Assembly: GCF_015142735.1 (NCBI RefSeq)
Contig: NZ_JACSPN010000013.1
Span: 55,012-119,011 of the forward strand
Direction: 5' to 3'
DNA: 64,000 nucleotides
Source: Oerskovia douganii
GTDB lineage: Bacteria; Actinomycetota; Actinomycetes; Actinomycetales; Cellulomonadaceae
In this document: one piece after another, positions 23,415 through 55,027 of the stretch
How positions within the stretch are numbered: the first letter of the stretch is position 1
Layout of the letters: each line of letters starts with the position of its first letter
The notes under the pieces: model-generated
What the model saw: only the letters and a program-made list of their open reading frames with translations
Databases searched by the model: none
Told to the model about the DNA's origin: nothing
Program-made: the position numbers and the translations under genes

Positions 23415-24365
23415 ATGAGCATCGACGACCCCCGGATCGAACGGATCCTCACGGCTGCGTCCAGGGCCCCCAGCGTGCACAACACCCAGCCCTGGTCGGT
23501 GCGCGTGCACGGCACCACGCTCGACGTGCGCGCCGACGACTCCCGCAGGCTGACCCACGCCGACCCCGCGGGGCGCGAGATGCTCATCAGCTGCGGGGCG
23601 TTCCTCGCGAACCTCCGCGTCGCGGCGCGCAGGGAGTCGTTCCGTCCGGTGCTGACGCTGCTGCCGGACGCCGGCGACCCCGCGCTGGTCGCGCGCGTCG
23701 ACCTGGTGCCCGGCGTCCTGCCCGACGCCGACGAGCTGGATCTCGCGGTCGCGATCGAGCGGCGCTCGACGTCCCGCGTGCCGTTCGAGGACCAGCCGCT
23801 CGACGTCGACGTCGTCGAGGCGCTCGACGCGGCCGCAGCCTCGGAGGGGGCGCGCCTGGTGAGCCTCGCACCGCAGGCCCCGGTGCGCGGTGAGCTGCTG
23901 GACCTCGTCCAGCGGGCCGAGGCCGAGGCAGGGAAGGACCACACGGGCCGGGTCGAGCAGGCGCGCTGGGTCACCAACGACCCGGACCGTCCCGACGGGA
24001 TCCCCGTCGCCGCGCTGGGACCCGCGAGCGACGACGCGCTGGCCCCCGTGCGTCACTTCGGTGGGGACACGACGAGCAACCGGGCCGCGTTCGAGCACCG
24101 GTCGACGCTCGCGGTCCTCACGACCCCGGGCGACACCGTGCGTGACTGGCTCGTGGCCGGGCAGGCCCTCGAACGGGTCCTGCTGACCGCGACGACGTAC
24201 TTCGTGCACGCGTCGTTCGCGACGACGGTCCTGGAGAACCCGGCGACGCGGGCGGAGCTCGCCGCAGCGCTCGACGCGGGCGCCCCGCAGATGGTGATGC
24301 GCCTGGGCTACAGCACGACGTCCCCTCGCACGCCGCGTCGTCCGGCGAGCGACGTTGCCCGGTAG
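23415..24365 (+). CDS. Acg-family FMN-binding oxidoreductase (nitroreductase-like)
   Basis: A 316-aa two-lobe nitroreductase-like protein. LTAASRAPSVHNTQPWSVRV is the hallmark start of the Acg family. IERRSTSRVPFEDQPLD opens the second lobe and VAGQALERVLLTATTYFVHASF corresponds to the terminal FMN-domain helix. Mycobacterial Acg proteins belong to the dormancy regulon and may sequester FMN rather than reduce substrates. An AGGGAGA ribosome site precedes the ATG. The last 15 residues are basic. Confidence 0.85.
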   Translation: MSIDDPRIERILTAASRAPSVHNTQPWSVRVHGTTLDVRADDSRRLTHADPAGREMLISCGAFLANLRVAARRESFRPVLTLLPDAGDPALVARVDLVPGVLPDADELDLAVAIERRSTSRVPFEDQPLDVDVVEALDAAAASEGARLVSLAPQAPVRGELLDLVQRAEAEAGKDHTGRVEQARWVTNDPDRPDGIPVAALGPASDDALAPVRHFGGDTTSNRAAFEHRSTLAVLTTPGDTVRDWLVAGQALERVLLTATTYFVHASFATTVLENPATRAELAAALDAGAPQMVMRLGYSTTSPRTPRRPASDVAR

Positions 24366-24393
24366 ACCGCACGCGGCGCCGTCCGGCAGACCC

Positions 24394-24470
24394 GAGACGG
24401 GTGCTCGCGCGCGAGACGGGCTGCCGGGTCGCCGGCCCAGGGGCCCGTCTCGCGCCGGAGCACCCGTCTC
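24394..24470. terminator. Long nested hairpin between convergent genes
   Basis: 28-nt arms (24394-24421 with 24443-24470) pair with two or three mismatches, and the 21-nt loop holds a further GCCGG/CCGGC stem. Each arm contains two GAGACGGG cores. It separates the Acg-type gene and the helicase gene and shares sequence with the repeats at 31117-31220. Confidence 0.8.
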
Positions 24471-24473
24471 GCG

Positions 24474-27137
24474 CTAGATCGTCCCGACCGCCACGACGCG
24501 CAGCACCACGGCCCCGGCCTCGTCGCTCGCCGCGAGGTCGACGACGGCGCTGATCGCCCAGTCGTGGTCGCCGGCCGGGTCGTCGAGCACCTGGCGGACG
24601 AACCACGTGCCGGGCTCGACGCGCTCGCCGTCGGGACGCACGCCGTTCTCGACGATCTGCACCAGCGCTGACGAGCGGGCCGCGGCGTCCACGCCGATCG
24701 CGTCGTTGCCGTGCAGCTCGAACATCGGGTCGAGGGCGTCGGCCCACGCGTCGCCGTCCCAGCCGCTCGCCTTGTCGAGGGCTTCGAGCGCGTCGTAGTT
24801 CTCGCGCGACGCGAGCTCGACCCGGCGGAACAGGGCGTTGCGGACCAGGACGCGGAACGAGCGCGGGTTGCCCGTCACGGGCCGGGCCGGGGCCTCGGCC
24901 CCCGTGCCGGACAGCGGGCCGTCCCCGACCTCGTCGTCCGCGTCGTCGTCGACCGGGTTGGCCAGGCGCTCCCACTCGTCGAGCAGCGACGAGTCGGTGC
25001 CGCGCACCAGCTCGCCGAGCCACTCGGTGATGTCCTGGACCTCCTCGGTACGGTGCTCCTCGGAGACGGTCTGGCGCATCGAGCGGTACGCGTCCGCGAG
25101 GTAGCGCAGCACGACGCCCTCGGTGCGGTCCAGGCCGTACACCGACACGAACTCGGCGAACGTCATGGCCCGCTCGATCATGTCCCGCACGACCGACTTG
25201 GGCGAGAGCTCGGCGTCCGAGACCCACGGGTTCGAGTGCTTGTACGTCACGAACGCGGGCTCGAGGAGGTCCGCGAGGGGCTTGGGCCACGTGATGGTCT
25301 CGAGCAGCGCCATGCGCTCCTCGTACTCGTACCCCTCGGCCTTCATGGCTGCGACGGCCTCGCCCCGTGCGCGGTGCTGCTGCGCGACGAGCACCTGGCG
25401 CGGGTCGGACAGCGTGGCCTCCAGGACCGAGACGACGTCGAGCGCGTGCGTGGGGGACTCGACGTCGAGCAGGTCGAGGGCCGCGAGGGCGAACGGCGAC
25501 AACGGCTGGTTGAGCGCGAACTCGCGCGGCAGGTCCACCGTGAGGCGCACCGTGGGGCGCTGCCCGCTCGGGTACGTCGGGTCGGGGACGCGTACGCGCT
25601 CGACGATGCCCGCGACGCGCAGCGAGCGGTAGATGCGGAAGACCTGGCGGACGTGACGCTCGCGCTGGGCCTCGGTGTCGTGGTTGGCCGTGAGCAGGTG
25701 CTTCATCGCCTGGACTGGATCGACCCCGCGGTCGCCGCGCGCGAGCACGTTGAGCACCATGGCGTGGTTGACCGTGAAGTGGCTGGTCAGAGGCTCGGGG
25801 TCGGCGTCGCGCAGGCGCTCGAACGTCGCGTCGGTCCAGTTGACCGCCCCCGCCGGGGCCTTCTTGCGGACGATCTTCTTGAGCTTCTTGGGGTCGTCGC
25901 CCGCCTTGGCGAGCAGCTTGCGGTTCTCGATCACGTGCTCGGGGGCCATGACGAGGACCTCGCCGAGCGTGTCGTAGCCCGCGCGACCCGCACGGCCCGC
26001 GATCTGGTGGAACTCACGCGCCGTGAGGTGACGCATGCGCTCGCCGTCGAACTTCACGAGGCTCGTCATGAGGACCGTGCGGATGGGCACGTTGATGCCC
26101 ACGCCCAGGGTGTCGGTGCCGCACACGACCTTGAGCAGCCCGGCCTGGGTCAGGCGTTCGACCACGCGCCGGTACTTGGGCAGCATGCCCGCGTGGTGCA
26201 CGCCCACGCCGTGGCGCAGGAACTTGCTGAGCGTCCTGCCGAACCCCGACGTGAAGCGGAAGTCGCCCAGCTCGGCCGCGATCGCGTCCTTCTCGGAACG
26301 GCTCGCGACGTTGATGCTCAGCAGCGCCTGGGCGCGGTCGACCGCGTCCTTCTGCGTGAAGTGCACGACGTACACCGGCGCCCGGTGCGTCGTCACGAGC
26401 TCCTCGATGACCTCGCCCAGCGGCTCGACGACGTAGCTGAACGTCAGGGGCACGGGGCGCTCGGCGCTCGTGACCTCCGCGACGGGGCGGCTCGTGCGGG
26501 TCTCGAGGTCCTCGGTGAACGTCGAGGTGTCGCCCAGCGTCGCGGACATGAGGACGAACTGCGCCTGGGGCAGCTCGAGGAGCGGGACCTGCCAGGCCCA
26601 GCCGCGCTGCGGGTCCGCGTAGTAGTGGAACTCGTCCATGACGACCTGCGCGACGTCCGCGTCGGCGCCGTCGCGCAGCGCGATGTTCGCGAGGATCTCG
26701 GCGGTGCAGCAGATGATCGGCGCGGTCGGGTTGACCGACGAGTCGCCGGTCATCATGCCCACGTTCGCGGACCCGAACACCGCGACGAGCGCGAAGAACT
26801 TCTCGCTCACGAGCGCCTTGAGCGGGGCCGTGTAGTAGCTGCGGCCGGGCACTCCCGCCCGGTGCGCGGCGAGGGCCGCGTAGTGCGCGCCGACCGCCAC
26901 GAGCGACTTGCCCGAGCCCGTGGGCGTCGCCAGGATGACGTGCGCGCCCGAGAAGATCTCGATGACCGCCTCGTCCTGGTGGGCGTAGAGGTCGATCCCC
27001 GTCTCGGTGGCCCACTCGGTGAACCCTTCGTAGAGGGCGTCGGGGTCCGGGGTGCCCGAGCCGTCCGGTGCCGGCAGGTGACGAACCAGGCCGGGCTCGG
27101 GACGGGTCGTGGGGGTCGTGGTGCTCATCGTGGCCAT
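24474..27137 (-). CDS. DEAD/DEAH-box helicase with DUF3516 C-terminal region
   Basis: An 887-aa Ski2-like superfamily 2 helicase. Motif I is ATPTGSGKS (about 70-78), motif II DEFHYY (169-174), motif III LMSATLGD, and motif [29 protein letters not shown] is typical of Ski2-type enzymes. The C-terminal half (about 460-887) matches DUF3516 found in actinobacterial homologues. A nucleic-acid unwinding role is secure, the biological substrate is not. The start is ATG 27137 or ATG 27128 three codons on; neither has a clear ribosome site. Confidence 0.9.
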   Translation of the reverse strand: MATMSTTTPTTRPEPGLVRHLPAPDGSGTPDPDALYEGFTEWATETGIDLYAHQDEAVIEIFSGAHVILATPTGSGKSLVAVGAHYAALAAHRAGVPGRSYYTAPLKALVSEKFFALVAVFGSANVGMMTGDSSVNPTAPIICCTAEILANIALRDGADADVAQVVMDEFHYYADPQRGWAWQVPLLELPQAQFVLMSATLGDTSTFTEDLETRTSRPVAEVTSAERPVPLTFSYVVEPLGEVIEELVTTHRAPVYVVHFTQKDAVDRAQALLSINVASRSEKDAIAAELGDFRFTSGFGRTLSKFLRHGVGVHHAGMLPKYRRVVERLTQAGLLKVVCGTDTLGVGINVPIRTVLMTSLVKFDGERMRHLTAREFHQIAGRAGRAGYDTLGEVLVMAPEHVIENRKLLAKAGDDPKKLKKIVRKKAPAGAVNWTDATFERLRDADPEPLTSHFTVNHAMVLNVLARGDRGVDPVQAMKHLLTANHDTEAQRERHVRQVFRIYRSLRVAGIVERVRVPDPTYPSGQRPTVRLTVDLPREFALNQPLSPFALAALDLLDVESPTHALDVVSVLEATLSDPRQVLVAQQHRARGEAVAAMKAEGYEYEERMALLETITWPKPLADLLEPAFVTYKHSNPWVSDAELSPKSVVRDMIERAMTFAEFVSVYGLDRTEGVVLRYLADAYRSMRQTVSEEHRTEEVQDITEWLGELVRGTDSSLLDEWERLANPVDDDADDEVGDGPLSGTGAEAPARPVTGNPRSFRVLVRNALFRRVELASRENYDALEALDKASGWDGDAWADALDPMFELHGNDAIGVDAAARSSALVQIVENGVRPDGERVEPGTWFVRQVLDDPAGDHDWAISAVVDLAASDEAGAVVLRVVAVGTI

Positions 27138-27219
27138 TGTCGCAGAGGCGTCGTCCGCCGAGGTCGCCCGCCGGCCCCGCCGCCGCGCGCCCGCGCCGCG
27201 CACCTGGGAACCTGGGCGC

Positions 27220-27816
27220 ATGGCGACCGACCGGCGCGAGGACGCTCCCCGCTTCCATCCCGAGACCGTGGCCGGGTGGCGTGCGTGGCTCGCCGAGCAC
27301 CACGACGACGAGGTACCCGGGGTCTGGGTCGTGCAGTGGCGCCGGGCCAGCGGCCGGGCGCCCATCGACTACGACGCCCTCATCGAGGAGGCGTTGAGCT
27401 TCGGCTGGATCGACGGGACGGTCCGGACGATCGACGACGACCGCTCGATGATGTGGCTGACCCGGCGTCGGCCCGGCAGCCGGTGGACGCGGCTGAGCAA
27501 GGAGCGGGTCGCCCGCGCGGAGGCCGACGGCAGGATGACCGACGCGGGGCGGGCGGTCGTCGAGGCCGCGAAGGTCGACGGGTCCTGGACGAGGTACGAC
27601 GACGCCGAGGCGCTCGTCGTCCCCGACGACCTGGCCGCGGCGCTCGCGGCGGCACCACCCGCCCGGGAGCACTGGGACGGTTTTCCGCCAGGGGTTCGTC
27701 GGCTGATCCTGGGATGGGTCGCGGACGCCAGGCGCCCGCAGACCCGGGCTGCGCGGATCGCCGAGACGGCCGACAAGGCCCGGCGAGGCGAACGAGCCCA
27801 CGAGCAGCCGCGCTGA
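27220..27816 (+). CDS. YdeI/OmpD-associated family protein
   Basis: A 198-aa protein with the YdeI layout. It opens with RFHPETVAGWRAWLAEHHDD and continues GVWVVQWRRASGRAPIDYDALIEEALSFGWID. Then come RSMMWLTRRRPGSRWTRLSKERV and a C-terminal segment HWDGFPPGVRRLILGWVADARRPQTRAARI. Relatives are sometimes called bacteriocin-protection proteins, but function is not established. It is divergent from the helicase. Confidence 0.85.
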   Translation: MATDRREDAPRFHPETVAGWRAWLAEHHDDEVPGVWVVQWRRASGRAPIDYDALIEEALSFGWIDGTVRTIDDDRSMMWLTRRRPGSRWTRLSKERVARAEADGRMTDAGRAVVEAAKVDGSWTRYDDAEALVVPDDLAAALAAAPPAREHWDGFPPGVRRLILGWVADARRPQTRAARIAETADKARRGERAHEQPR

Positions 27817-27898
27817 GCGCCCGTCGCGACACGACCACCGCCAGCGGCTAGCGTCCGTCGGGACGGCAGCACCGCCGTCGGGCTGAAGGAGTGAACGC

Positions 27899-29350
27899 AT
27901 GGAGGTCCTGCAGGAGGCCCTGATCGACCCGTTGAGCAACGCCCTGTACTCGTACGTCCTGGTCTACGTGCTGATCGGCGCGGGCATCTACTTCACGGTC
28001 CGCACGCGCGCGGTCCAGGTGCGGCTGTTCGGGCTCATGTTCCGGCTCGTGGGCGGGTCGACGGGCGCGGCCGAGGGCGGCATCTCGTCGTTCCAGGCGT
28101 TCTGCGTGGGCCTCGCGTCGCGCGTGGGCACGGGGAACATCGCGGGCGTCGCGATCGCGCTGACGCTCGGCGGGCCGGGCGCGATCTTCTGGATGTGGTG
28201 CGTCGCGCTCATCGGCATGGCCACGGCGTTCGTCGAGGCGACCCTGGGGCAGGTCTTCAAGGTCCGGGCCGACGACGGCTCCTACCGCGGCGGCCCCGCG
28301 TACTACATCCAGCGCGGCCTGGGCTCTCGTCGGTGGGGGATCGTGTTCGCGATCCTGCTGATCTTCGCGTTCGGCTTCGCGTTCAACATGGTCCAGGCGA
28401 ACACGATCAGCGAGGCCCTCGACAAGGGGCACGCGGTCTCGCCCGGCTGGACGGCGGTCTTCCTCATGGTCCTGGCCGCGCCCGTGCTGTTCGGCGGGGT
28501 CAAGCGCGTCGCGAAGGTCGCGGGGATCGTGCTGCCGGTCATGGCGGGGGTCTACGTGCTGCTCGCGGCGACGATCATCCTCCTGAACCTGGGCGCGCTC
28601 CCGGGCGTGATCGGGCAGATCGTCGAGGGGGCGTTCGGGCTCGACCAGGCCGTCGCGGGCACGGCGGGCGGGATCCTCGCCGCGCTGCTCAACGGGGTCA
28701 AGCGCGGCCTGTTCTCGAACGAGGCGGGCATGGGCAGCGCCCCGAACGCGGCCGCGACGGCGACTGTCTCGCACCCCGCCAAGCAGGGCCTGATCCAGTC
28801 GCTCGGGGTGTTCGTCGACACGATCGTGGTGTGCTCGGCGACGGCCTTCATCATCCTCATGGCGGGCCCGGAGGTCTTCGACCCGGGGACGACGACCGAC
28901 GCGGCCGGGGCCTCGCTCACGCAGGAGGCCGTCGCGGCCCAGCTCGGGTCGTGGACCGTGTGGCCCATGACGATCCTGGTGTTCGTCTTCGCGTTCTCCT
29001 CGGTGCTGGGCAACTACTCGTACGCCGAGGTCAACCTGACGTTCCTGGGGATCCGCGCCAAGGCGCTCACCGCGCTGCGGACCCTCGTGCTGGCCGCGAT
29101 CGGCATCGGGTCCCTCATCGAGCTCGAGGCCGTGTGGGCCGTCGCGGACGTCGCGATGGCGCTCATGGCGCTCGTCAACCTGGTGGCGATCACGCTGCTC
29201 GGCCGGTGGGCGTTCGGTGCGCTCAAGGACTTCGAGCGCCTGCGCAAGGACGGGAGCGACGCCCGGTTCGTCGGGATCGGGAACCCGGACCTGCCCGGGG
29301 ACGTGCCGGGCGACGTGTGGGCGCCGGTTCAGCAGGGCTCGAAGACGTAG
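27899..29350 (+). CDS. Na+:alanine/glycine symporter (AGCS family)
   Basis: A 483-aa transporter with about eleven helices. Family signatures are GGISSFQAFCVGLASRVGTGNIAGVA near residues 59-84, RGGPAYYIQRGLG near 130 and KRGLFSNEAGMGSAPNAAA near 265. It imports alanine or glycine with Na+. An AAGGAG ribosome site lies 7 nt before the ATG and a TAGCGT -10-like box lies at 27849-27854. Its 3' end overlaps the convergent lipoprotein gene by 22 bp. Confidence 0.95.
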   Translation: MEVLQEALIDPLSNALYSYVLVYVLIGAGIYFTVRTRAVQVRLFGLMFRLVGGSTGAAEGGISSFQAFCVGLASRVGTGNIAGVAIALTLGGPGAIFWMWCVALIGMATAFVEATLGQVFKVRADDGSYRGGPAYYIQRGLGSRRWGIVFAILLIFAFGFAFNMVQANTISEALDKGHAVSPGWTAVFLMVLAAPVLFGGVKRVAKVAGIVLPVMAGVYVLLAATIILLNLGALPGVIGQIVEGAFGLDQAVAGTAGGILAALLNGVKRGLFSNEAGMGSAPNAAATATVSHPAKQGLIQSLGVFVDTIVVCSATAFIILMAGPEVFDPGTTTDAAGASLTQEAVAAQLGSWTVWPMTILVFVFAFSSVLGNYSYAEVNLTFLGIRAKALTALRTLVLAAIGIGSLIELEAVWAVADVAMALMALVNLVAITLLGRWAFGALKDFERLRKDGSDARFVGIGNPDLPGDVPGDVWAPVQQGSKT

Positions 29351-30219
29351 CCCTGGTCGCGCGGCGTGGTGAGGTCTCGGTCGCGGCCCACGACCGACGC
29401 CCCGCGGGCGCACGCCGCGGCGAGGCGGTCCGCGAGGGCGGGCTCGTCGTCGTACTCGATCTCCAGGACGCGCGTGCCGTACGCCGCGGCGTAGTCGCCG
29501 CACTCGACGTGGACCGCGCAGTCCTCGGTGACGACGAAGTCGAACCCGAGCGCCGGCCCGCGCTCGCCGAGCTCGACCGTGTTCTTCTGACCGATCGCGA
29601 GGCCCCGCGCGTGGGCCTGCTCGATCAGGAGCGTGGCGAGCGCGAGGTTGTCGCCCTGCGTGAGCGCTCCGTCGGAGCGGGTGAACGAGTCCAGGTTGTC
29701 GGCCTCGACCGCGTCGAAGCCCGCATCCGCGCACGCGTCCACCTGGGCTCCGACGATCTGCGCGATCGCGTGGCGAGAGGCGTCGGTCGAGGTGTCGAGG
29801 AGCAGCTCGTCGGGCCAGCCGGGGTCGGCGACGGGAGCGCCGGCGTCGTCCCGCAGGACGAGGTCCGGGTGGTCGCGCAGCCAGGTCTCGCGCTCGCCGG
29901 GCTGGGTCTGGAAGCCGTTGACGTAGCAGACGTCGTAGCCTGCGCCCGCGGGGGAGTCGGTGACGTCGCGCACGACGACCGTGACGCCGTCGGGCGGCGG
30001 GTACGCCCCGCCGAGCTGGTAGTCGAGCCCGGCCCCGGCGGGCGGGGGAGCGGGCGTCGTGCCGCCCTGCCCGACGGCGTCGCTCACCGACGTCGTCGGC
30101 TCACGGTCGCTCGGGGCAGCAGGGGCCGGGCCGGCGGCGCACCCGGCGGCGAGGACGAGGACCAGGGCCGGCCCGACGAGCGACGCGGGAACGGACGAGC
30201 GGAGGGGGAGCGGGGGCAC
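29329..30219 (-). CDS. Endo-alpha-1,4-polygalactosaminidase-like (GH114) lipoprotein
   Basis: A 296-aa secreted lipoprotein. The signal peptide ends in the lipobox VLAAGC near residue 28. A Pro/Gly linker leads to a TIM-barrel domain with YDVCYVNGFQTQPGERETW, DELLLDTST, ACADAGFDAVEADNLDSFTR and LAIGQKNTVELGE. The pair of acidic residues in VEADNLD is the expected catalytic region of GH114. It would cleave galactosaminogalactan-type polymer, which is family-level inference. GTG at 30219 gives a proper signal peptide. The 3' end overlaps the AGCS gene by 22 bp. Confidence 0.82.
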   Translation of the reverse strand: MPPLPLRSSVPASLVGPALVLVLAAGCAAGPAPAAPSDREPTTSVSDAVGQGGTTPAPPPAGAGLDYQLGGAYPPPDGVTVVVRDVTDSPAGAGYDVCYVNGFQTQPGERETWLRDHPDLVLRDDAGAPVADPGWPDELLLDTSTDASRHAIAQIVGAQVDACADAGFDAVEADNLDSFTRSDGALTQGDNLALATLLIEQAHARGLAIGQKNTVELGERGPALGFDFVVTEDCAVHVECGDYAAAYGTRVLEIEYDDEPALADRLAAACARGASVVGRDRDLTTPRDQGYVFEPC

Positions 30220-30271
30220 GGTTCCATGCTCGCACCCGTGCCGGGCCGCGAGGGTCGACCGGCCGGAGGGG

Positions 30272-31081
30272 TCAGCCCAGGTCCCACAGCAGCCGGTAGT
30301 ACGCGATCCGCTCGGGGTCCGGCTCGACCCCGTAGGCCTCGTAGACGATCCCGTCGTAGCCGGGCCCGTAGTTCCACCCGGTGCTCCAGGCGGCGACGGC
30401 GAGGTCGGCCCAGCGGTCGGCGACCCCGAGCGACCCGAGGTCGACGTGCGCGGCGAACGAGCCGTCGGCGTGCAGGAGCGTGTTGGGTGCGCACGCGTCG
30501 CCGTGGCACACGACGAGCCGGTCCACGGGCGGCGCGACGTCGAGCCGCGCGCGGGCCTCGGTGACCGTGAGCGCGGCGTGCTCGGGGAACCACTCGGTGG
30601 GCCCCTCGCCGTCGGCGATGCGCTCGTCGGCGCGGGCGGTGCGCTCCTCGATGCCCCACGTGAACGGGCAGTCCTCGACGGGCAGGGCATCGTGCAGGAC
30701 GCGCAGCCCGTGGCCGATCGAGGCGGCGGCCGTGGCGGGTTCCGCGACCCAGCGCGGGTCGACGGCCGAGGCGGCGTCGATCGCCTCGGTCACGAGCCAG
30801 GCACCGGCCTCGTCCCGCCCGGCGTCGAGCACGCGGGGCACGGCCGTGAACCGCGATGCCCACGCCAGGCGCTCGGCCTCGGCGAGCAGGTCGATCTCCG
30901 GGGTCCCGGCCGCGACCCACTTGACGTACCGGTCCGTGCCCCAGCGGAACGTGAGGCCGCCGAGGTCGTTCCGCCAGACCGGGACCAGGTCGCCGCCTCC
31001 CGAGGCGTCGACGAGCGACCGGACGGCGGGCGGCACGGGCACGGGGCGGGTGGGGATCATGGCGAGGGGCGGTCGCGACAT
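30272..31081 (-). CDS. Aminoglycoside phosphotransferase (APH) family kinase
   Basis: A 269-aa protein-kinase-like enzyme. The catalytic loop is VVCHGDACAPNTLLHADGSF (His-Gly-Asp ... Asn) and the metal-binding Asp is in HVDLGSLGVADRWADLAVA. The N-lobe Lys is in RYVKWVA. The layout is that of APH(3')-like proteins. Chromosomal homologues in actinobacteria are often of unknown substrate, so resistance should not be assumed. The ATG at 31081 begins after an intergenic repeat cluster. Confidence 0.85.
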   Translation of the reverse strand: MSRPPLAMIPTRPVPVPPAVRSLVDASGGGDLVPVWRNDLGGLTFRWGTDRYVKWVAAGTPEIDLLAEAERLAWASRFTAVPRVLDAGRDEAGAWLVTEAIDAASAVDPRWVAEPATAAASIGHGLRVLHDALPVEDCPFTWGIEERTARADERIADGEGPTEWFPEHAALTVTEARARLDVAPPVDRLVVCHGDACAPNTLLHADGSFAAHVDLGSLGVADRWADLAVAAWSTGWNYGPGYDGIVYEAYGVEPDPERIAYYRLLWDLG

Positions 31082-31116
31082 GCCCCGATCCTGCCAGGTG
31101 CGAGCGACGGACCGAG

Positions 31117-31220
31117 GGCGCGAGACAGGTGGGTGCGTCCGAGACGGGTGGTCCGGGCGGCGTCCTGAGCACCCGTCTCGCGCCGGGCCACCCGTCTCGC
31201 GCCGGGCCACCCGGTCTCGG
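31117..31220. repeat. Intergenic GAGACGGG/CCCGTCTC repeat cluster
   Basis: The 19-bp unit CACCCGTCTCGCGCCGGGC is repeated perfectly at 31170-31188 and 31189-31207, with a third diverged copy starting at 31208. Inverted copies of the core lie at 31119-31132 and 31140-31150. The same core builds the hairpin at 24394-24470. It lies between two minus-strand genes and can fold into alternative hairpins, so it may act as the terminator of the gene upstream on that strand. Confidence 0.85.
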
Positions 31221-51627: not shown

Positions 51628-51699
51628 TGGGGTATGGTGTAATTGGCAACACAACGGTTTCTGGTACCGTCATTCTAGGTTCGAGTCCTGGTACCCCAG
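51628..51699 (+). tRNA. tRNA-Gln (anticodon CTG)
   Basis: The acceptor TGGGGTA (51628-51634) pairs with TACCCCA (51692-51698) and the discriminator is G. The anticodon stem ACGGT/ACCGT encloses loop TTCTGGT with anticodon CTG at 51661-51663. The T arm contains GGTTCGAGTCC. CCA is not encoded. A short palindrome GTCGGTC-A-GACCGAC follows at 51722-51736. Confidence 0.93.
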
Positions 51700-51793
51700 C
51701 GCAGAGCAAGCAGCGCATCGAGTCGGTCAGACCGACACGAAACGTGCAGTAAAGTTCTCATCGGCACGGAGCCCCTCGGGGTGACGAGCTTAG

Positions 51794-51866
51794 GCCCCCA
51801 TCGTCTAGCGGCCTAGGACGCCGCCCTCTCACGGCGGTAACACGGGTTCAAATCCCGTTGGGGGTA
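51794..51866 (+). tRNA. tRNA-Glu (anticodon CTC), copy 1
   Basis: The acceptor GCCCCCA (51794-51800) pairs with TGGGGGT (51859-51865). The anticodon stem CCGCC/GGCGG encloses CTCTCAC with anticodon CTC at 51828-51830, and the T arm has GGTTCAAATCC. CCA is not encoded. A TAAAGT box at 51750-51755 might serve as its own -10. Confidence 0.95.
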
Positions 51867-51871
51867 CGTAC

Positions 51872-51932
51872 GAGGCCTGGCCATCGTCAGATGACCGGGC
51901 CTCGATGACGCTCACTCGCCCTTCGGGGCGAG
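51872..51932 (+). terminator. Hairpins between the two tRNA-Glu genes
   Basis: A 9-bp stem with one G-U pair (51872-51880 with 51895-51903) is followed by CTCGCCC-TTCG-GGGCGAG (51915-51932), a 7-bp stem with the very stable UUCG tetraloop. Either could be a terminator or a processing site. Confidence 0.55.
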
Positions 51933-51944
51933 GGAGCGGTCCTG

Positions 51945-52020
51945 GCCCCCATCGTCTAGCGGCCTAGGACGCCGCCCTCTCACGGCGGTAACACGGGTTC
52001 AAATCCCGTTGGGGGTACCA
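51945..52020 (+). tRNA. tRNA-Glu (anticodon CTC), copy 2
   Basis: The 73-nt body is identical to copy 1, offset by 151 bp, with anticodon CTC at 51979-51981. Unlike copy 1 it is followed by an encoded CCA (52018-52020). Confidence 0.95.
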
Positions 52021-53914: not shown

Positions 53915-55027
53915 TCAGCCGGGCGGTGGCGGTACCGGCGGAGCGGTCGTCGGTGCCGGGCCCGTGGCCCCCTCGGGCCGCTCCCAGGGGTCCGAGGCCG
54001 TCCACCCGGCCTGCGCGTCCCACGGGGTGACGGGGACGAACGTGCCACGGTGGTCGTCGGAGACCTCCCACGCCGGACCGTCGGCCTCGCCGCCGGAGTC
54101 GTCGGCCTCCCACGCCGGACCGTCGACCTCGTCCGCAGGCCCCGCCCCCGCGCCGGCGTCGGGCCCCACCGCCGCGACGGCGGGAGGTGGCGGGGGCACC
54201 ACGGCATGCCGGTCCGCGCCCACCCGCCACGGCCCGCTGCCGCGAGGGGCCACGAAGAGATGTCCCTGACGGTCCTGCTGGACCGAGCGGACGGCGAGGG
54301 GCTGCGTCGCGGCCGCGGACCGGTCGCTCTCGGGGCCGTCACCCGTCGCCGTCCACGACGTGCCGCCCAGCGCAGGCTGTCCGGGCTGCCCGGCCGCCGA
54401 GGGCTGCGGGGGCCGGCCGTGGGGCCCAGGCGGGGGCACCGCGCCGCCCTGGGGTGCGCCGGGCTGCGGCTGCCCCCACGGCCCGCCGCGGCCTCCGGGG
54501 ATGAAGATCGTGTCGCACAGCGTGCGGTACGTCGCGTCGGGCCGGGCGACCCAGTTGATGCGGCTCATGGCCTGGTCCTGACCGGCCGACTCGAGGATGA
54601 ACTGGCCGTAGCCCAGCACGCGGCCCACGACCGATCGGCTGTAGCTCATGTCCGTGACCTTGCCGAGCGGCATCATCGCGACCTTGTGGGTCACGAGCCC
54701 GAACATCAGGAGCATGCGCTTGTCGGTCGCGACGAACCACTCGTTGCGCCAGTCCAGGACCTTCCACAGCAGGCGCAGCGCGACGAGCACCCACGCCCAC
54801 CAGAGCAGCAGCGCGCCCTCGCCCACGGTCGGGCCGATCGTGCTGACCAGCCAGGCCACGAGCAGGAAGGCGGCGAAGGTCGTGGCGACCGGCTCGGCGA
54901 GCTTGCCCCAGTGGGCGCGCGTGGCCAGGACGACGCGCTCGCCCGGGAGGATGTAGCGCCGCAGGTGACGCGCGCTCAGGCGTGGCGTCCGCGTGGGGGA
55001 CTCCACGAAGGGCAGGTCCTGCGCCAT
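53915..55027 (-). CDS. PH (bPH2) domain membrane protein with long Pro-rich tail
   Basis: A 370-aa protein. HLRRYILPGERVVLATRAHWG opens it and two helices follow (about 45-90). The bPH2 domain (NEWFVATDKRMLLMFGLVTHKVAMMPLGKVTDMSYSRS) ends near 180 with DATYRTLCDTIF. The second half is disordered Pro/Gly/Gln-rich sequence with two similar acidic segments (DGPAWEADDSG and DGPAWEVSDDH). Function unknown. It lies 7 bp after a 55-aa membrane protein gene. Confidence 0.85.
   Translation of the reverse strand: MAQDLPFVESPTRTPRLSARHLRRYILPGERVVLATRAHWGKLAEPVATTFAAFLLVAWLVSTIGPTVGEGALLLWWAWVLVALRLLWKVLDWRNEWFVATDKRMLLMFGLVTHKVAMMPLGKVTDMSYSRSVVGRVLGYGQFILESAGQDQAMSRINWVARPDATYRTLCDTIFIPGGRGGPWGQPQPGAPQGGAVPPPGPHGRPPQPSAAGQPGQPALGGTSWTATGDGPESDRSAAATQPLAVRSVQQDRQGHLFVAPRGSGPWRVGADRHAVVPPPPPAVAAVGPDAGAGAGPADEVDGPAWEADDSGGEADGPAWEVSDDHRGTFVPVTPWDAQAGWTASDPWERPEGATGPAPTTAPPVPPPPG

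Follow-up and report, generated by a model that had tools for sequence, protein, structure and literature searches.

What are the two palindromic loci that lie only 6.7 kb apart between genes of Oerskovia douganii, and to which kind of genetic element do they belong? The window considered here, the whole stretch of 64,000 nucleotides at positions 55,012 to 119,011 of contig NZ_JACSPN010000013.1, holds them near its positions 24393 and 31121, and the original prediction, made from the letters of the window, took them for members of a lineage-specific family resembling repetitive extragenic palindromic (REP) sequences or miniature inverted-repeat transposable elements (MITEs), possibly with a REP-associated tyrosine transposase (RAYT) as partner. 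Our results make it fairly probable that they are solo copies of a palindromic repeat within a gene-repeat partnership, in which we propose that a nuclease spreads the repeats. In Oerskovia, elsewhere in its family and in one or more further families of the order, genes encoding AbiEi-like/PD-(D/E)XK-like (DUF559/MTES_1575-like) proteins often stand beside or between palindromes, which are mostly 55-80 bp long and consist of two tandem 19-20-bp units followed by the same units inverted. The word is particular to each gene, and that of many genes is found again in scattered intergenic solo copies.

Both window loci proved to be copies of one element of about 79 bp, in which two tandem 19-bp units, a short loop and the same units in inverted order follow one another. 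Four 7-mer cores stand at the identical spacing of 19, 34 and 19 at the two loci (starts at 24393, 24412, 24446 and 24465, and at 31121, 31140, 31174 and 31193), and the core is found in both orientations at each of them, as had been predicted with correct coordinates. Taken by itself and with up to two mismatches allowed, the core shows no enrichment in the window (10 matches versus 6.48 +/- 2.29 in shuffles, with 10 or more in 9 of 100 shuffles); the signal at these loci lies in the arrangement of the units and not in the core word alone. A covariance model built from 13 copies of the own genome (labelled G000; the six Oerskovia congeners are G001-G006) found at least 16 copies there and at least 14, 14, 7, 3, 1 and 1 in the congeners, or 56 Oerskovia copies in all, numbers that are lower bounds, with at most 150 candidates scored per genome (28 in a search of 150 family genomes). 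Genome-wide, the 10-mer ACCCGTCTCG had 41 matches, 29 of them within the 16 elements, compared with 5 for its reversed control. The loci are not an isolated pair, and the predicted dispersed REP/MITE-like intergenic family is real.

The same design occurs with other words beyond the genus. A motif-light pattern that fixes only GAGA/TCTC at the spacing of the element was found in 66 of 221 genomes of the family (1 of 221 with the reversed control), at as many as 29 copies per genome, and in 16 of 394 genomes of the class, 11 of which belong to family f13 (control, 1 of 394). As this pattern recovers just 27 of the 56 Oerskovia copies, it undercounts. Among the matches listed, the word or words are particular to each genome and recur in the outer and inner units. 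Element lengths in other genomes were 65-67 in 34 of 42 copies and 75-77 in 6 of 42, two length classes that differ by about 10-11 bp, near one helical turn. When the covariance model was run on the 150 family genomes, it gave a single weak match per genome in 8 genomes from two further genera. These weak relatives have the 19-bp two-plus-two inverted design with different words and varying decay, and one of them (G090, L146) lies inside a called gene. On the copy number, the 10-mer counts and the family-wide pattern, a chance repeat is rejected.

The candidate partner is a gene enclosed by two copies about 1.2 kb apart in three Oerskovia genomes (G000, G002 and G006), and relatives of the enclosed protein adjoin elements in three other lineages (phmmer). 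The gene unit is common to several Oerskovia species at one site; in the own genome the gene, between its two copies, is frameshifted (G000:C37:4086-5390, L063), and at the same site it is open in G002, G004 and G006. The N-terminal half of the protein matches PADLOC AbiEi models in all four proteins compared (best E 7.3e-15 to 2.7e-11), with a Pfam AbiEi_4 match below the cut-off and no match in NCBIfam. The C-terminal half carries PD-(D/E)XK-like residues (E in 127 of 129 sequences, D in 127 of 128, E-x-D-G in 128 of 128, K in 119 of 128 and R in 128 of 128), at positions E210, D241, E252-x-D254-G, K258, E274-K275 and R277, each conserved in 109 to 128 of the 128-129 sequences. A close homologue was listed for the Oerskovia genomes with 16 (gene broken), 14, 14 and 3 copies and for none of those with 7, 1 and 1, a suggestive indication, from seven genomes only, that copy number tracks the presence of the homologue. 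Plasmids and phages gave no match at 1e-5 in a tblastn search with one protein as query. The RAYT that had been anticipated as partner did not materialize: PF01797 was found in 0 of 7 genus genomes, with the control positive in 5 of 14 well-known genomes, and the AbiEi-like/PD-(D/E)XK-like gene takes its place as the candidate.

Linkage between gene and palindrome was examined at 130 gene loci read from at least 187 matches, namely the best 30 and 100 from further down the list; one gene sequence is represented twice among them (L208 and L237, from the two ends of a single contig), and both were counted. The GAGA detector found elements on both sides at 16 loci, on one side at 13 and on neither at 101, with one element in the remaining DNA. 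This detector missed flanks, and a motif-free detector was therefore used, which found 26 loci with palindromes on both sides, 32 with one side and 72 with none. By this measure 86 palindromes lie at a distance of up to 600 bp from the gene (154 kb in total), compared with 5 in the remainder (342 kb), and after removal of the six loci that seeded the profile the figures are 24, 31 and 69 loci, with 81 palindromes near versus 5 far. Palindrome-flanked loci made up 10 of 34 in genomes chosen as GAGA-free and 48 of 96 in the others. The controls gave 0 palindromes near and 1 far in 22 helicase loci, of which 16 are fair (2 of 24 loci are omitted, and at 6 of the 22, L125-L130, the scanned region falls within a longer gene), none in flanks shuffled in 2-base blocks, and 15 in 396 kb of Oerskovia sequence at a distance from elements. 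The internal tandem offset of 81 palindromes was 19 in 58 and 20 in 16, where shuffles gave about 8% and 7%, respectively; many of the palindromes have words without GAGA. Flanked genes are dispersed over the protein tree (75 of 129 rows) with many state changes, and they are more clustered than shuffled labels. Together, the evidence for linkage between gene and palindrome is strong. In one genome, G464, three consecutive copies about 130 bp apart stand on one side of the flanked nuclease gene (L311, G464:C1:2481079), and a second such run of copies is found at C1:862814-863204.

Comparison of the words pointed in the same direction. With palindromes shorter than 50 bp excluded from this and the following comparison, which reduces the loci flanked on both sides from 26 to 25, the best match of the upstream palindrome was the downstream palindrome of the same gene in 24 of 25 cases. 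Across 55 genes, similarity of palindromes followed similarity of proteins (Spearman 0.27, and 0.21 for pairs below 60% identity; Mantel 0 of 999). Solo copies best matched a gene-flanking palindrome of their own genome in 33 of 42 cases (20 of 20 in Oerskovia, whose genomes were pooled, and 13 of 22 elsewhere), the input being 20 of the 56 Oerskovia copies and 24 first-listed others, from which two without a flanked gene were not counted. Since word and protein change together and the word recurs at fixed spacing, the protein probably reads its word.

We propose that the DNA-binding domain would recognize its own word, which each palindrome presents about four times at fixed intervals, that the nuclease would cut at or beside palindromes, and that subsequent repair or transfer would copy solo palindromes into new intergenic sites. 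The solo repeats would then be passengers that the protein spreads, in the way that RAYTs are thought to spread REPs; by this analogy, spread of solo copies by the protein is our best inference. The chances seem evenly balanced that these repeats form a selfish class without known transposase chemistry, in which an AbiEi-like/PD-(D/E)XK-like protein reads a private 19-bp word four times and spreads the palindrome by cutting and repair, each paralogue having diverged to its own word, which would give several independent pairs per genome. It looks like a previously unrecognized pairing of selfish repeats with their own enzyme, although its novelty is provisional: no such gene-repeat pairing was found in the open-access literature, subscription papers and preprints lying outside that search, and nothing was found there that joins AbiEi with DUF559, or DUF559 with inverted repeats.

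Within the window, the 79-nt core of copy 1 occupies positions 24393-24471 and is given no strand (covariance-model match 24385-24479); in the genome it corresponds to G000:C4:79396-79490, matched on both strands (E 4.5e-12 on the plus and 4.0e-10 on the minus strand). Its outer left unit (CGAGACGGGTGCTCGCGCG, 19 bp, 24393-24411) and inner left unit (CGAGACGGGCTGCCGGGTC, 19 bp, 24412-24430) read on the minus strand, and its inner right unit (24434-24452, with terminal CCCGTCTCG) and outer right unit (24453-24471, with terminal CACCCGTCTCG) on the plus strand. The copy is contained in the 108-bp gap (24366-24473) between the stop codons of a convergent nitroreductase gene and DUF3516 helicase gene, which are 6 bp apart in all six congeners, an empty site. 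A 10-bp word (CCGGTAGACC / CCGGCAGACC) occurs twice at 24359-24392, about 24 bp apart and on the same side of copy 1, and once in congeners; this doubled word is no plain target duplication. Copy 2 has its core at 31121-31199 (model match 31113-31207; G000:C4:86124-86218, both strands, E 5.1e-12 on the plus and 1.1e-9 on the minus strand). It includes on the plus strand the perfect 19-bp tandem duplication CACCCGTCTCGCGCCGGGC (31170-31207), which is exact over 31170-31188 and 31189-31207, just as originally described, and a degenerate third right-hand unit, CACCCGGTCTCG (31208-31219). It is bounded on one side by the stop of a gene without a Pfam family and on the other by the start of an APH-family gene, and shares its site group with a G006 copy that adjoins orthologous genes. 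Predicted folding energies are -75 to -76 kcal/mol (z -7.1 to -7.9) for copy 1 and -73 to -76 kcal/mol (z -4.8 to -5.2) for copy 2. An Rfam scan of the window returned no family at either locus and only three tRNAs elsewhere, which are consecutive genes at 51628-52017, two of them scoring equally.

Across Oerskovia, the core is exactly 79 nt in 46 of the 56 copies. All copies are intergenic, one of them overlapping a called start, according to our own gene caller, a codon-score open reading frame caller trained on the window rather than a standard annotator. Flanking genes are convergent at 14, co-directional at 29 and divergent at 13 copies, and the 196 background gaps longer than 60 bp at the same loci comprise 35, 111 and 50, respectively. 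The orientations of the copies resemble those of background gaps, and the family is therefore not tied to 3' ends, contrary to the expected confinement to 3' intergenic positions. By orthologous neighbour genes, 48 of the 56 copies fall into 13 site groups, each spanning the genomes of at least two species; one group, with seven members, pools both sides of the AbiEi-like gene. Among copies at orthologous sites the flanks drift and the unit cores remain similar. One G003 copy is short by exactly 19 bp relative to its G006 counterpart, and extra 19-bp units are present in a G006 copy at G006:C1:4030199. Pairing in 46 copies (81.5%) was no better than in column shuffles (mean 80.4%, maximum 82.3%), so it is the word, and not continued folding, that is conserved. 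A conserved RNA was rejected on the Rfam result, on a covariation term of +0.67 from RNAalifold with the 13 own-genome copies and on this lack of compensating changes. In G001 and in G005, the sole copy found adjoins a gene of 330-336 aa without a Pfam family (L113:4115-5107, L112:2970-3980 and L100:4118-5128), which has 81-82% identity, most neighbours having 90-99%. Neither the 336-aa gene by these single copies nor a HAD hydrolase between two G002 copies has a DNA-acting Pfam domain, and both were set aside as partners.

The claim of lineage specificity held in part. In a first sample, the covariance model (E 0.01) matched in 7 of 7 genomes of the genus and in 0 of 22 outside it; the weak matches in the eight other genomes of the family and a wider scan speak against strict specificity. 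In a scan of the genomes of 84,980 species, the two-unit word was present in records of O. turbata and O. rustica and also in one Arsenicicoccus and one Rhodopirellula record, both of which hold 19-bp tandem CGAGACGGGTG arrays (L116, and L114 and L115, respectively). The array of Arsenicicoccus bolidensis (NZ_AUFG01000061.1, L116:320-500) has the same core, CACCCGTCTCGCG, and uses a second word, CACCCGTCTCACCCTGCAGCACGAGAC, twice. In the planctomycete Rhodopirellula MAG MED661, the 19-bp tandem CGAGACGGGTGGCAGAGTT arrays L114 and L115 stand at two contig ends and share the word start and the period, and no inversion was seen in them. No AbiEi-like gene was found by phmmer in these Arsenicicoccus and Rhodopirellula stretches.

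Several observations weigh against a partnership in which the nuclease spreads the repeats. Transposition, binding and cutting were not observed, and inspection by eye of 25 units and of copy 1 revealed no plain target-site duplication. The 72 loci without a palindrome include the G004 and G006 Oerskovia units, where the covariance model places flanking copies that have decayed below threshold and that both detectors miss. The empty site at copy 1 cannot be polarized: G000 branches outside its six congeners in a one-gene tree, and among 12 family genomes with the helicase, no Oerskovia-like convergent neighbour was recognized by eye in the 11 read downstream (G011 was left out), so that gain and loss are indistinguishable there. 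Nine of the 42 solo copies best match a foreign genome (G104, G187, G195, G071, G200, G206, G215, G414 and G334), with not all paralogues read in G104, G200, G206 and G215. The putative nuclease fold is based on the motif and on sub-threshold Pfam matches in 3 of 10 proteins (DUF559 0.0055, MTES_1575 0.0081), and the sole PDB match has an E of 0.37. Divergence of the gene barely exceeds that of its neighbours (89-92% versus 90-99% in G002, G004 and G006). A search with a profile built from six of the proteins recovered homologues in 58 of the 60 genomes tried, whether or not these carry GAGA elements; the 60 were hand-picked, about two-thirds of them because they bear elements. Furthermore, no homologue was found at E <= 1e-15 in G167 and G055, which have 10 and 11 pattern copies, and the gene of the own genome is frameshifted; resident copies are therefore not always accompanied by a working gene.

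It is unlikely, in our judgement, that the palindromes are operators through which the AbiEi-like domain represses its own gene, the scattered copies being a regulon and the nuclease domain incidental or a means of defence. AbiEi binds inverted repeats and autoregulates, and both the PADLOC matches of the N-terminus and the palindromes upstream of the gene at many units would suit such a role; yet palindromes also stand downstream, with 26 of 130 loci flanked on both sides, 14 of the 56 Oerskovia copies have convergent neighbours, so that a promoter of an adjacent gene would not be expected there, and ten scanned genes that adjoin copies share no common theme. We would also give little credence to solo palindromes as scars, left when a palindrome-gene-palindrome unit inserts and recombination deletes the gene so that one copy remains, in the manner of solo long terminal repeats. 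Close relatives offered no instance of a whole unit at two sites, and the gene was found only at the C37-type site (phmmer with one protein and frames of at least 80 aa at 51 Oerskovia loci, by which shorter remnants are missed), even though the paired palindromes of a unit closely resemble each other, the shared Oerskovia unit occupies one site and the GAGA detector finds up to two flanked genes per genome compared with up to 29 GAGA-form copies.

Bidirectional intrinsic terminators, hairpins without a U-tract that would be alike by chance, are a decidedly improbable alternative. The hairpins are very stable, and among 42 copies in other genomes (3 lying within called genes and 1 at the edge of a contig), 15 of the 38 that could be classified are convergent and 4 divergent, as terminators would be. 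In Oerskovia, however, 13 of 56 copies lie between divergent genes, no T run was seen by eye after the stems in copy alignments, and the pairing lacks compensating changes; terminators would need neither a species-wide word nor a 19-bp spacing. There is very little likelihood of a classical REP/BIME (bacterial interspersed mosaic element) family moved by an undetected HUH (Y1) transposase, for although dispersed intergenic palindromes flank a gene here as REPs flank rayt genes (PMC2817692), the PF01797 search, made for this family and within the genus, was negative with a working control, the units, inspected by eye, lack the form of a small hairpin with a GTAG or CGTC foot, words vary between genomes, and the flanked gene matches AbiEi models and not an HUH family.

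The dedicated enzymes known for REP-type repeats are HUH transposases. If the proposed partnership is true, a second, unrelated enzyme would occupy a RAYT-like role, and partnerships of this type would have arisen more than once. It would account for anonymous palindromes in many actinobacterial genomes and would hint at what a large group of AbiEi/DUF559-like proteins may do. In addition, it would provide dozens of natural protein-word pairs for working out DNA recognition by the domain.

Four known systems invite comparison. With DUF559/MTES_1575 restriction-endonuclease-like proteins the flanked gene shares the conserved D...E-x-D-G..K...R pattern and the sub-threshold Pfam matches, but it is associated with repeats, an association not found for those proteins in the open-access literature. 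It resembles type IV toxin-antitoxin AbiEi in the N-terminal region that matches PADLOC models; unlike AbiEi, this region is joined to a nuclease-like domain, and the palindromes stand on one or both sides of the gene and are scattered through the genome. Some MITEs carry several repeated sites per end, for example TniA- or TnsB-type ends. The Oerskovia repeat is likewise palindromic and non-coding, each of its arms containing repeated units that resemble binding sites, and solo words best match gene-flanking palindromes of the same genome in 33 of 42 cases, Oerskovia pooled; no target duplication was seen, there is almost no interior between the arms, and the flanked gene is, by its matches, no DDE transposase (no genome-wide DDE search was made). 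Closest in overall form are REP/REPIN-RAYT systems. REP repeats are short intergenic palindromes with species-specific words (PMC3733652), and RAYT genes have their own REPs on both sides, coevolve with them and track REP number (PMC2817692). By the tests made, the Oerskovia system is not REP/RAYT, as no PF01797 occurs in the genus and the repeat is built differently: four units at 19-20-bp spacing, mostly 55-80 bp in all, replace a hairpin of 20-40 bp that has a GTAG or CGTC foot. In Oerskovia the repeat lies between divergent genes as often as background (13 of 56 versus 50 of 196), and in other genomes at 4 of 38 copies; the partner is AbiEi-like and PD-(D/E)XK-like rather than an HUH tyrosine transposase. 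Nevertheless, the two systems have in common short intergenic palindromes, species-specific words, two copies around a gene and covariation of gene and repeat, the gene-flanking trait being present here for part of the homologues (26 of 130 on both sides), with the same word in 24 of 25.

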